This document shows, in pieces, positions 193-40,042 of a DNA stretch of 49,279 bases (position 1 is the first letter of the stretch; every line of letters starts with the position of its first letter). A program made the translations under genes and the position numbers. The stretch spans positions 1 to 49,279 of the forward strand of contig JBDRVV010000020.1 of NCBI GenBank assembly GCA_039802005.1, in the 5' to 3' direction. The DNA is from a candidate division WOR-3 bacterium (GTDB taxonomy: Bacteria > Hydrothermota > Tepidihabitantia > SM23-42 > JAOAFX01). The notes under the pieces were generated by a model. It was not told the origin of the DNA, did not search any database, and saw only the letters and a program-made list of their open reading frames with translations.

Positions 193-1725
193 TTATCTCA
201 CCACCACAACCCGCCCTGAAAATCTGCCATCAGGGGTATCAACGACAACAAAATATACTCCCGCAGAAAGAGCTTTGGTCTCAACTTTTGTCCCGTGCTG
301 ACCCGCATGCATATCCGATTCAAATAGACCCGCAACCAGCCTTCCTGAAATATCATACAATTCAATCCTTACCCGCCCTTGATTTTTAACTTGATAATTA
401 ACTCTAAATTTATCTCTTACCGGATTGGAGGTAATCGTTATTGGACTTGGCACTCTTGCAGATTGATTTTCTTTAATTCCAGTCTGTAGCCACTGGGCAT
501 CAAATTTGAGTTTGACAGGTGGATCGTAGTCAACCCAGCACACATAAGGTTCGCCATTACGCTGACCGACTGCGGGAAAATAGTATGGGTTACAGCTACT
601 ACTACCATTCTTGACATTAATTGATGCTGACCAAGGTGATGATACACTGTCATACCTTACCTTCTGGTAAAATATCTCCTCTTCCGCTCCACGGTATGCT
701 ACATGGTAATAGCCAAGACTATCATCAATTACAAGACAATGAGCGACATTCGCGGTTGAATTTGAATCGTAGATTATACCATAATTCCAGTTATCCCCAC
801 CGTTGGTGCTAAAAAAATAATATAAATCAGCATTATCTTCTAATGTATCTATTCGGACAAAAGTTATTAATGCTGAAGGAAATCCCCCATGGGTCATCTG
901 TAAATGGGGAAAACCATCACGGCAATTTACTGACGGAATAAACTCAATTAATGGACGCCAACGCCCGGGCATACCATTCAAGGTATTCTTTCTGAAGATT
1001 ATCTTTCCGTTCGTTTCATCGTTGCTCAAAAGTTGCCAGGCAACTCCAACCGACATTGAATCAGGTGGAGTTGAAATCCAACCATAGGCACAGCTCGGGT
1101 TTAAAAATCCATAATTTGTACTCGGATAACCGATGATCTGCCGGTCGGTCCAGGTCATACCATAATCTGAAGAACGGATAAAGGCGATTGAATCAAAACT
1201 CGTAAAGGCACAGAAAAGCCAGGGACCATTGGGATGAGCTGGACTACTGGTGCAGAGACTCGGGTCTCGCTCAGGTACTCCGGCTATTACTGAGATATCT
1301 CTGAATAGGCCAGAAGACAATGCCAGATTACGACGATAAGCACGGGTATTATATTCGTTTGCCCCCACATCCCAGAGGTCAAATGCCACATACAGAAATT
1401 CTGAGTCTTGCGCAGTAAAGATAGTCATTGAGGGATTCTGCAAATGCCCCTGACTTATGCTGAACCACAGATATTGACTCCAGTTTATACCATCAAGCGA
1501 GCGATATACCCTTATCCCGTAGCGTGTGGTGTCTTCAAAGAATCTTCCTGATACCGCAACGAATATTTCACCATTTGAGCGACGGGTTGCAACTGAAACA
1601 CCCTGATAAGCCCTTGCACTATCAATCACAACATCCTGGTCTGTCCACAAAGGACCCGGATTGTCTGCAGACATTATCGCCAATAAGGCGATTGTTATTA
1701 TTGAGATTTTTTGTAAATTATTCAT
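193..1725 (-). CDS. secreted BNR/sialidase-like beta-propeller protein with C-terminal sorting domain
   Basis: The 510-residue product has an N-terminal signal peptide (hydrophobic stretch about residues 6-20). Three Asp-box motifs of the BNR/sialidase propeller type are visible: SLDGINW near 76, SSDYGMTW at 185-192 and STNGGDNW at 306-313. Residues from about 430 to the end form a Por/T9SS-type beta-sandwich sorting domain (SNPVRDKFRVNY, YDISGRLV, LSAGVYFVV). The protein is probably exported and surface-attached or released. Sialidase catalytic residues (arginine triad) are not evident, so glycosidase activity should not be assumed. The start is supported by AGGAG 8 nt upstream of the ATG, with a 7-bp hairpin just before it. 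The gene stands alone between two copies of a 99-bp repeat. Confidence 0.8.
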   Translation of the reverse strand: MNNLQKISIITIALLAIMSADNPGPLWTDQDVVIDSARAYQGVSVATRRSNGEIFVAVSGRFFEDTTRYGIRVYRSLDGINWSQYLWFSISQGHLQNPSMTIFTAQDSEFLYVAFDLWDVGANEYNTRAYRRNLALSSGLFRDISVIAGVPERDPSLCTSSPAHPNGPWLFCAFTSFDSIAFIRSSDYGMTWTDRQIIGYPSTNYGFLNPSCAYGWISTPPDSMSVGVAWQLLSNDETNGKIIFRKNTLNGMPGRWRPLIEFIPSVNCRDGFPHLQMTHGGFPSALITFVRIDTLEDNADLYYFFSTNGGDNWNYGIIYDSNSTANVAHCLVIDDSLGYYHVAYRGAEEEIFYQKVRYDSVSSPWSASINVKNGSSSCNPYYFPAVGQRNGEPYVCWVDYDPPVKLKFDAQWLQTGIKENQSARVPSPITITSNPVRDKFRVNYQVKNQGRVRIELYDISGRLVAGLFESDMHAGQHGTKVETKALSAGVYFVVVDTPDGRFSGRVVVVR

Positions 1726-2462: not shown

Positions 2463-5400
2463 TTAATCTGTGCTGAGAATTTTTTTATAAAGTTTTATTG
2501 TTTCTGCGCCAGGTTCGGCATCCAATTCTTCTTTGAAATTTCTCTTTAAAATCTCAAACTGCCTTAAGGCGCCGTTTCGGTCACCCTGATTATACAAACT
2601 TTCCATAATAATCTGATGTGCCTTTTCATCAAGGTGATCAAATGCAAGTAGTCTCTGTGCCATGAAGATTGATTCCTGATAATCCATTTTTTCCAGAGAC
2701 CTTAACGCAAGCCAGGAAAGCATAATTTTCATCTTCGTCTTCAATTCCATATTCTTTCTTAAAATTGGTTCACTATAAAACTCAGGCAAAAAATCGTCTT
2801 TATACAGATCTAATGACCGGCGTGCACGGTCTTCTGCAGTATGTAATTTACCCTCGCGTTTTAAGCCCTGCCATTCTTTGTAAAGGTTTTCAAATGTCAA
2901 AAAATCTACTTCTATTATATCCATATCTAAAAGAATAAATTGTCCGCTCTGGATAATAACATCTTCACCCAATATTTTTTTAAGATGTGTCAGCGCAACA
3001 CGGAAATTTAACTGTGCTTTATCTTTTGTTGCCTCGGGCCAGAGGCTGGATGCCATTGCCTCTCTGGTGGCTCCACTTTTCGGAGCAACCAATAGCAGTC
3101 CGAGCAATTCCTGCGCTTTGCGCGAGGGCCATTCACTTTTTGATAATTCAGAGACATCCATCGGCCTCTTTATCTGTAGACCACCAAAAGTTGAAATGAT
3201 AGTTTTATCTATTATTAAATTGCTTGTTTTTTCTGAAATAAAATTACAGCATTTAATAAACCGAGCCTTTTTCAATTTCGGGTATAGCCACTTCATCCGC
3301 TCGGTCCCCCCCATATTAAAGAGCATTTGCAATCCATTAAATAATAGTTCTTCACCTTCTTTTTGCCCCAGATGAAATCCAAAGTCTATTAGTAAATGGC
3401 TCAATTGTGGCAGTTTCTTCCCTGATTCCAATAAATTTTTTGACTCCTTAAAATACTTAAATGCCTCATCTTTCTTATTCTGGTAAAGGTAAATTAGCGC
3501 CTTTTCACCCAATGCCCGGGCATAACGGGATTTGAGATTTAAGCTTTTAAGGCGGGGAAGTAACTTATCAATTATATCTATTGCCTGCAAAAAGTTTCCC
3601 TTCTTTCCGCATAAAATTGCTTTGAGACAATCCAAGTCTACCTGACCACCAATATCCATATCGTTGGGCGAAATACCATTTATTGTCTCTTCAGCCAGAG
3701 GGATATTATCCGTATCCAGATAAATTTTTGTCTTTAGCAACTGGACAGATGCCTTCAATCGTACATTATAAAAATTCTTCGCCCGCTCAATAACTCTATC
3801 TAATATTTGAATTGCTTTATCATTATCACCCCTGTGGATGTGACACAATGACATGTAGAGAAGATTTATCGAGATGGTGGGGTCGCGTTGTAATATTTTT
3901 GCATAGTTAAGAGACTCTTCAAAATTTTTCAACGCCGAATCCAAATTACCCATTTCCATCTCCGCAAGCCCAAGATTCATAAGTGAATCACCAATGTAAG
4001 GGAGAATATTATAGTGTTGGGCGACCTTTAATGCCCTGAAAATAGACTTCCTTGCCAATTCATAATCACCCTTCATAATCGCCACCATACCGATGCTGTT
4101 GAGTGTTTTATAAAATGCATCTGGGGCTTTGTCTTGAGGGATAATCGAGCTTAATTTTTCAGCTTCTTTTATTGCCTCTTGCAATAATCCCTTTCTCCTT
4201 AACAGCAGCAGACGGTCGGCCAGAAGTTTATAATAAAATGGGTTGGACTTTTGGATTCGGGAGAGTGCTTTATTCAAATATATTTCTGCACTTTCAAATC
4301 TTTGTGTGGAGAGCATTCGGTTAAAGAGCATCTCACAGTATGCTACAAAATCATCTTTCAATTTAGACTTTTCCAATTCCGATACAAATGACTCTGCCTG
4401 TTCCAGGGGAACTACATCTCGGCCTAATGTCCAGCCGAGATAGTTGAGTTTTGCCTTAATTATTATTCTTTCTCTTTCTGCATTAGAAATTTGTTCAGCC
4501 ATTTCTTCTGCTATCTTCAAGTAATGCCAGGCAGAATGGTAGTTATAGGTAGCAAAAAGTTTTGCAGAAGTATTGATAAGATATCTGACCAATTTTTTCG
4601 TTCCTTCGCCTTGAATTAAATACTTTGTGCGATGGTATAAGACCGTATTCTCATCCGCGCCAGAATTCGCTAAAACCCTCGCCAGTTTCCTATGCATTTG
4701 GCGCCTTTTTTCTGGTTCAATTCTTTGATACAGGATTTCCCGAATCAAAGGATGACAGAATTGCTTTTTATTATGAATTCCTTCAATAATTCTAAGATTG
4801 GTGAGTGTATTACAACTCTTAATAATCCTATTCCTGGATTCCGAAACCAATAATTTCTTAAGAATTTCAACATCAAAATTTTCACCAATCACTGCCGCGG
4901 CCTGGAGTAATTGCAGTTCAGATGATTTCAGTTGACTAAGCCGATAATTAATTACGCCTTCTACCGTGTCCGAAATAGTGAAGTCTTGATAATCACTTCT
5001 TATTGACCACTCATTTTTGTTGCTATCATACACAATGATGTTCTGACGGAGCAAGGCTTTTAATATTTCGGCGATAAAGAGCGGATTCCCTCTTGTGAGT
5101 GAATATAGCCATTGTAAAAAGTGTATTGGTATATCAATCATAAATTGCTCGCTTAATAGAGATTCAACTTCATTCTGAGATAGGTTATCAAGATTGATTA
5201 TGACAATTTGGCGGTTGGAATTAAGTTCATCTATAAGTTCTTGTAGATTTGAACTAATTTCATCGGACCGGGCGGTAGCGATACATAAGATAGGTTTATT
5301 ACTAATCCTCATAACAAGATAGCGTAATAAATCAAGGGCGTCGTCTCTAATCCACATAATGTCATCCAAGAATAAAATTAATACATTATATTTTGAAAGA

Positions 5401-39414: not shown

Positions 39415-39442
39415 TTGACATAATAAAAATTATGTGTATAAT
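39415..39442 (+). promoter_or_regulatory. strong promoter of the lysine-rich peptide gene
   Basis: Consensus TTGACA (39415-39420), 16-bp spacer, consensus TATAAT (39437-39442). It is one of the best promoters of the window, driving a unit of only about 115 nt. Confidence 0.85.
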
Positions 39443-39464
39443 TTTTATATAAAAAGGGGGTAAA

Positions 39465-39521
39465 ATGCCTAAATGCGCAACTAAGAAAACAAAAAAGAAA
39501 AGCAAAAAGAAAAAAAAGTAG
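39465..39521 (+). CDS. 18-residue lysine-rich peptide MPKCATKKTKKKSKKKKK
   Basis: ATG at 39465 follows a strong GGGGG RBS (about 39455-39460) and ends at TAG 39519-39521. Twelve of the 18 residues are lysine, with one Cys at position 4 and no acidic residue. The unit is complete: consensus promoter, RBS, ORF and a near-perfect terminator at 39538-39563, with nothing else encoded. It could be a nucleic-acid-binding micropeptide, comparable in composition with tails of bacterial histone H1-like proteins or ribosomal proteins, or the transcript may act as a small RNA. Not recognised from any described family. Confidence 0.6.
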   Translation: MPKCATKKTKKKSKKKKK

Positions 39522-39537
39522 GCTGATGTGAGAGATA

Positions 39538-39563
39538 AAGGGGAGGCAATGCCTCCCCTTTTT
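39538..39563 (+). terminator. intrinsic terminator of the lysine-rich peptide gene
   Basis: A perfect 10-bp stem (AAGGGGAGGC, 39538-39547, with 39551-39560), 3-nt loop, ending in a run of five T (39559-39563). Confidence 0.9.
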
Positions 39564-39565
39564 AC

Positions 39566-39593
39566 TTGATTTTATATAAAATCTGATTATAAT
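39566..39593 (+). promoter_or_regulatory. promoter of the LEA2-like lipoprotein gene (leaderless)
   Basis: TTGATT (39566-39571), 16-bp spacer, TATAAT (39588-39593), 5 nt before the ATG at 39599. It starts immediately after the preceding terminator. Confidence 0.78.
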
Positions 39594-39598
39594 TTTTT

Positions 39599-40042
39599 AT
39601 GAATAAAAAAATAGAAATTTTAATCTTCCTTTCTTTTATTCTGTGCTGTTCTGCAATAAAAGAACGCCTTGCAGTGAAAGAATGCAAATTCACTTTTATC
39701 TCTGCTAATGCTTATGACTTTACATTCTCAGATATGAAGGTTGATTTTGAACTAAAAATGCAGAATCCGAACAATGTTGATGCTACACTTGATAAGCTTG
39801 ATTACAAATTTTATGTTAATCAAACAGAAGTTTTCTCGGGAACAACTGGTAAAGGACTAAAAGTTTTGGCTGGTAAATCAGAGAATTTTACAACCACGAT
39901 TACACTTGAATATACAAAGATCGGACAGGCAATTGTTGAGGCGATAAGATTCAAAACTGCATCTTATAGTATCAAAGCGAAGGCATATGTTAAAACGATA
40001 GTCGGAGAGATCAGCTATCCTGTGGAGATTTCTCTAAAATAA
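39599..40042 (+). CDS. LEA14/WHy-domain (LEA_2) lipoprotein
   Basis: 147 residues: an N-terminal hydrophobic segment ending LCCSA, a probable lipoprotein signal. One LEA_2/WHy beta-sandwich follows: VDFELKMQNPNNVDATLDKLDYKFYVNQTEVFSG, then ITLEYTKIGQAI. Such domains occur in periplasmic or outer-membrane-anchored stress-related proteins. It overlaps the convergent flavoprotein gene by 9 bp. Confidence 0.78.
   Translation: MNKKIEILIFLSFILCCSAIKERLAVKECKFTFISANAYDFTFSDMKVDFELKMQNPNNVDATLDKLDYKFYVNQTEVFSGTTGKGLKVLAGKSENFTTTITLEYTKIGQAIVEAIRFKTASYSIKAKAYVKTIVGEISYPVEISLK

Follow-up and report, generated by a model that had tools for sequence, protein, structure and literature searches.

The unit at 39415-39563 of the window (the whole 49,279-nucleotide stretch of DNA analysed here, from a candidate division WOR-3 bacterium) is, as read from its sequence, a real, self-contained and separately transcribed microprotein gene. 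It encodes MPKCATKKTKKKSKKKKK, and it belongs to a gene that is universal in a bacterial order, missing from the family libraries we used and easily dropped by gene-finding length cut-offs. The way in which the coding sequence has changed among relatives makes a translated, functional peptide very probable, and by analogy with known Lys-rich tails it is most likely a bare histone-H1-tail-like protein coating DNA or RNA.

The first-pass annotation had described this stretch as a consensus promoter, a strong RBS, an 18-codon ORF with 12 lysines and a near-perfect terminator. The signals and the codon count hold up (Table 1), while the peptide contains 11 lysines rather than 12. The terminator hairpin is revealed by direct reading and by folding, although a stock terminator scan of the window leaves it unlisted, and an Rfam scan of the window at gathering thresholds gave no match. 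A single-sequence fold of the unit yields the terminator and a weak helix only.

Table 1. Features of the microprotein unit and of its downstream neighbour (window coordinates)
Feature	Position	Strand	Remarks
Sigma-70-type promoter TTGACA-N16-TATAAT	39415..39442	+	12/12 consensus match; -35 TTGACA 39415-39420, -10 TATAAT 39437-39442, spacer 16 nt; aligned with 16 orthologous units, across which the -35 is invariant
Shine-Dalgarno GGGGG, purine-rich	39456..39460	+	Kept in relatives, there GGAGG
ORF MPKCATKKTKKKSKKKKK, 18 codons, stop TAG	39465..39521	+	ATG at 39465, TAG at 39519-39521; orthologues in 27/27 genomes of the order; third-position bias
Intrinsic terminator with T-run (stem 11 bp, loop 3 nt)	39537..39563	+	Hairpin AAAGGGGAGGCAATGCCTCCCCTTT at 39537-39561, starting 15 nt past TAG; T-run to 39563; sequence reading and RNA fold
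Downstream promoter TTGATT-N16-TATAAT	39566..39593	+	Belongs to LEA_2 lipoprotein gene and stops 5 nt ahead of its ATG; equivalents in G001 and G002; the unit ends before it
LEA_2 (PF03168) lipoprotein gene	39599..40042	+	Neighbour, outside the unit; same neighbour in G001 and G002

It had also been argued that such an investment in expression signals implies high expression. This was overstated, as the window holds six perfect 12/12 promoters on its two strands (5896 (-), 7180 (+), 16954 (-), 18363 (-), 18378 (+) and 39415 (+)) against 0.06 expected per shuffled window, so that a perfect promoter alone is not special here and loses weight as a sign of exceptional expression; from the sequence, high expression is nevertheless plausible. 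The composite of a SD, a short ORF and a hairpin follows only one of the six, that at 39415, and 300 shuffled windows contained no composite unit of promoter, SD, short ORF and hairpin. The gene also illustrates that overlooked microproteins can be sought by a strong promoter and a terminator flanking a short, biased ORF. At several of the six perfect promoters a start codon lies just 5-9 nt past the -10 box, which suggests that leaderless transcripts may be common in the window's genome.

Related genomes were searched with a model (R1) of the region from the promoter to the fourth codon, built from 17 units and run on 147 genomes of phylum WOR-3; statements about the window's genome as a whole are likewise those of pattern and model searches. 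The best R1 match is the unit in 27/27 genomes of the order (44-64 bits), among them eight that are absent from R1 itself (G010, G013, G014, G015, G017, G022, G023 and G026), and across the 147 phylum genomes nothing outside the order exceeds 31 bits. Broader sequence patterns likewise pick up the unit across the order. Reading of the ORFs gives 30 units in these 27 genomes (two each in G008, G020 and G024), and an additional one in G027, from family f3 of the class, brings the total to 31. The layout is the same order-wide: a promoter and GGAGG precede a Lys-rich ORF, 17-64 aa in length, and a GC-rich hairpin lies 3' of the stop in 30 of the 31 units. The other two species of the window's genus encode MPKCAATKKTKKKSKKK and MPKCATTKKTKKKSKKK, each with its own promoter, GGAGG and hairpin.

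Beyond the order, a search with the pattern MPK[CS][GA], in which matches outside the order were judged by the matched letters alone, pointed to no other Lys-rich family, and in an all-genome pattern scan short ORFs of the Lys-rich architecture occurred only in WOR-3 records among the at least 117 stretches listed. The MPKCG-type pattern is unmatched in viral contigs, the miaA loci of genomes from other orders show no Lys-rich short ORF, and no paper in the literature library searched combines WOR-3 with lysine-rich or small proteins. GC-rich genomes of genus g28 (family f6 of the same class) encode Lys-rich peptides of 17-23 aa (MVKKAKKAVKKTAKKGKKK, MPAKKAKKAVKKIAKKK) that follow a SD AAAGGAGG and have a GC-rich hairpin past the stop; the sequence upstream of them is conserved but unlike that of the order (TTGTCCGTTCCGTAACCTG...). 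These genes lie near 1010-1070 (+) in L301, L302, L303, L304 and L305, and on the reverse strand in L293. Such peptides may be homologous to the order's unit or convergent with it.

The 31 proteins range from 17 to 64 aa (median 35) and consist of 60% Lys, 13.5% Thr, 6% Ala, 5.8% Arg and 4% Val, with a single Glu in 1,099 residues, no Asp and no aromatic residues, giving net charges of +9 to +41. An N-terminus of the form MPK[CS][GA][SA] recurs in many of them, and the remainder is made of K3-4 runs parted by VT, TT, AT or a single A or T (repeats of the KKKVT / KKKKTT kind), with length differing by gain or loss of K3-4(V/T/A)T repeats. A polylysine-like chain of 17-64 aa would be expected to be disordered. 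The order's peptide is absent from the family databases searched: Pfam (E<=1) and NCBIfam scans of four longer members (the 18-mer is too short to scan) gave no match but a single meaningless NCBIfam one (E 0.54, far below the cut-off), and a sequence search of the PDB with a 45-aa member found none at E<=0.01.

If the unit encodes a functional peptide then changes between relatives should be sorted by their effect on the protein, and this is what their sequences indicate. Seven pairs that are separate in the phylogeny show 42 nucleotide differences, 31 of them at codon position 3, while simulated neutral changes put through the same alignment treatment place a mean of 0.36 there and none of 300 runs reaches 0.74. 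The sole ungapped pair (G001-G002) agrees, with 5/6 differences at position 3. Length changes between units are whole codons, and Lys-to-Glu changes, a single A-to-G step away, are nearly absent. AAG makes up 66% of the lysine codons of the family and 30% of those in the long ORFs of the window, a comparison that pools genomes of mixed base composition and is suggestive only. Because of the third-position changes, the whole-codon indels and the near absence of acidic residues, it is the peptide, not the RNA, that is conserved, and on this sequence evidence selection is acting on its amino acids.

The surroundings of the unit change across the order. Most genomes of the order's second family have it between a divergent nfeD and a HepT-like - pilD - miaA operon (the HepT-like assignment is weak, its 22.3 bits falling short of the 23.5-bit cut-off), and G003, from the window's own family, has the downstream side of this synteny in common. 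In the window's genus miaA is located elsewhere and the unit adjoins the LEA_2 gene, as do the units of G001 and G002, where a promoter-like sequence again lies close 5' of the gene start. The second units of G008 and G024 are near another gene cluster, which we take to be MoxR/DUF58-like. Of the 31 units, 24 have TTGAC, the -35-like element of a following promoter, 3' of the hairpin. As the unit has its own terminator and the next promoter element lies downstream, it is transcriptionally self-contained, and we infer that the microprotein acts in trans. Many f2 units also carry a conserved TGCTACAC element 5' of the -35 box, at a distance of some 55-70 nt from the start codon (L061, L063, L068, L072, L073, L077, L093 and L295), possibly a regulator site or part of the divergent nfeD promoter.

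By analogy with characterised Lys-rich tails, the peptide is probably a nucleic-acid binder, and it is an evenly balanced call that DNA, or the nucleoid, is its main target. It would bind the phosphate backbone by charge and with no sequence preference, acting as a free-standing counterpart of the disordered Lys-rich tail of histone H1, Hc1, Hc2, BpH1 or AlgP, and the result would be charge neutralisation and nucleoid compaction alongside ordinary HU proteins. The window's genome encodes HU, so the peptide would be an accessory. Such a charge-based mode would tolerate the length variation by K3-4(V/T/A)T repeats. HARE-HTH winged-helix proteins (PF05066) occur in 19/27 genomes of the order, often with a Lys-rich N-terminal tail (e.g. 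MKKVKRRKKKMKVMKKKKKK), so this lineage joins similar tails to a domain of a kind that binds nucleic acid. The HARE-HTH tail is about 15-25 residues long in L363, L364, L372, L376, L377, L378 and L381 and only MKKIKKKR is left of it in L374, from the window's genome, where tail and micropeptide are both short (one clade); in G009 (L069) an N-masked stretch follows the HARE-HTH ORF (3015-3251, reverse strand). Three points speak against the H1-tail reading: a protein that compacts DNA would hardly be expected to have just 18 residues, 11 of them lysines; rRNA, tRNA, polyphosphate or acidic proteins would be equally good partners for a polycation; and conservation of MPKCG/S at the N-terminus hints at a role more specific than charge alone. 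If the peptide is a nucleoid protein, the H1 tail can work without an attached domain and at 18 residues, which would make it a minimal charge-driven DNA compaction system. The fullest version of this proposal is put forward only tentatively: an order-defining, free-standing H1-tail microprotein, a pure polycation among the smallest bacterial nucleoid proteins, which apparently arose once, at the base of the order or earlier, and has a similar if different-looking 17-23-aa counterpart in f6.

Two further readings would take the emphasis away from the protein. The unit could be a small RNA with a regulatory role, about 115 nt long and with an incidental ORF, an alternative already raised by the first-pass annotation and suggested by the short transcript unit, the strong terminator and a fold z of -2.15; yet the centroid fold contains nothing but the terminator, and it is the frame, start, RBS and stop that are kept while the terminator stem changes in sequence. 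The pattern said to favour such an RNA, with frame, stop or RBS lost and RNA structure conserved, is reversed in 27/27 genomes of the order, and we reject this reading on the codon-position test (31/42, 0/300), since differences cluster at synonymous positions and indels are whole codons; it is now very improbable. A short Lys-rich ORF followed by a terminator is also the textbook anatomy of a lysine-sensing leader peptide, in which the hairpin would be a regulated terminator of the downstream gene. Here the peptides reach 64 aa, and the neighbours vary between the LEA_2 lipoprotein gene, HepT-like-pilD-miaA and others at second copies, none of them lysine genes. The downstream genes moreover have promoter-like sequence of their own past the hairpin (TTGATT in the window's genus). 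An attenuator is thus rejected on the changing neighbours and the downstream promoters, the adjoining lipoprotein gene in the window's genus giving a leader-peptide role no support, and we regard it as hardly credible.

The main rival to an H1-tail-like protein keeps the peptide and changes its target. bTHX and eL41 are small basic ribosomal proteins, and a ribosome-associated microprotein that fills a rRNA crevice or aids assembly, as these and bS22 do, would share with them its size, its charge and its single-gene unit; the peptide is universal in the order, and some members start MPKCG, resembling the MPCG of bS22. However, several of these genomes have a separate gene for bS22 itself (MPCGRKRKLKKIKKHK..., with bS22 as its top PDB hit at E 1.7e-5), which is a constant 31 aa with a fixed His/Arg pattern, whereas the micropeptide is without a PDB match and its repeats let it vary between 17 and 64 aa. 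Outside the order, the pattern and model searches turned it up solely in G027, apart from the different-looking f6 group. Free length variation argues, though not decisively, against a fitted ribosomal protein, and overall we consider this reading unlikely, though it would make the peptide a new lineage-specific ribosome component. The bS22 gene (MPCGRKRK...) lies at L312:703-798 and L074:3013-3108 and in L313 and L314, and Pfam/NCBIfam scans of it are blank. Less probable still is a scaffold for polyphosphate or RNA condensates, in which the polycation would organise polyanion granules and not the chromosome. The Lys-rich tail of AlgP is required for polyP granule spacing (PMC9239181) and the sequence of the micropeptide is purely charge-based, but no polyphosphate or storage genes were recognised among the neighbours of the unit, and nothing specific indicates polyP.

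For an H1-tail-like protein, the closest known counterparts are chlamydial Hc1 and Hc2 and Bordetella BpH1, which are likewise Lys-rich, disordered and acid-free and set their length by short Lys-rich repeats; the Lys-rich C-terminus of Hc1 binds DNA, and Hc2 and BpH1 vary by such repeats (PMC2848022). In composition the micropeptides have the Lys-rich, acid-free, repeat-built, low-complexity character of H1-like proteins; in the Pfam and NCBIfam scans they matched no curated family model. Hc1 differs in having an N-terminal dimerisation domain, the micropeptide being domainless, and Hc2 in being 165-237 aa of mainly Ala-containing pentamers, compared with 17-64 aa and 60% Lys. The low-complexity Lys-rich tails of AlgP, PhaF and the eukaryotic histone H1 C-terminus are thought to bind DNA by charge, and AlgP peptides, from a tail that is H1-like, do bind DNA (PMC9239181). 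These tails, however, sit on a folded domain and use KPAA repeats, whereas the micropeptide is free-standing and without a Pro/Ala-rich repeat. The small ribosomal proteins bS22, bTHX and eL41 are similar in being about 25-31 aa and strongly basic but have a fixed length and pattern, unlike the variable micropeptide. Within the same genomes, the HARE-HTH proteins (RNA polymerase delta-type domain) have a tail with a similar K/V/T vocabulary that extends a winged-helix domain, whereas the micropeptide corresponds to the tail alone.
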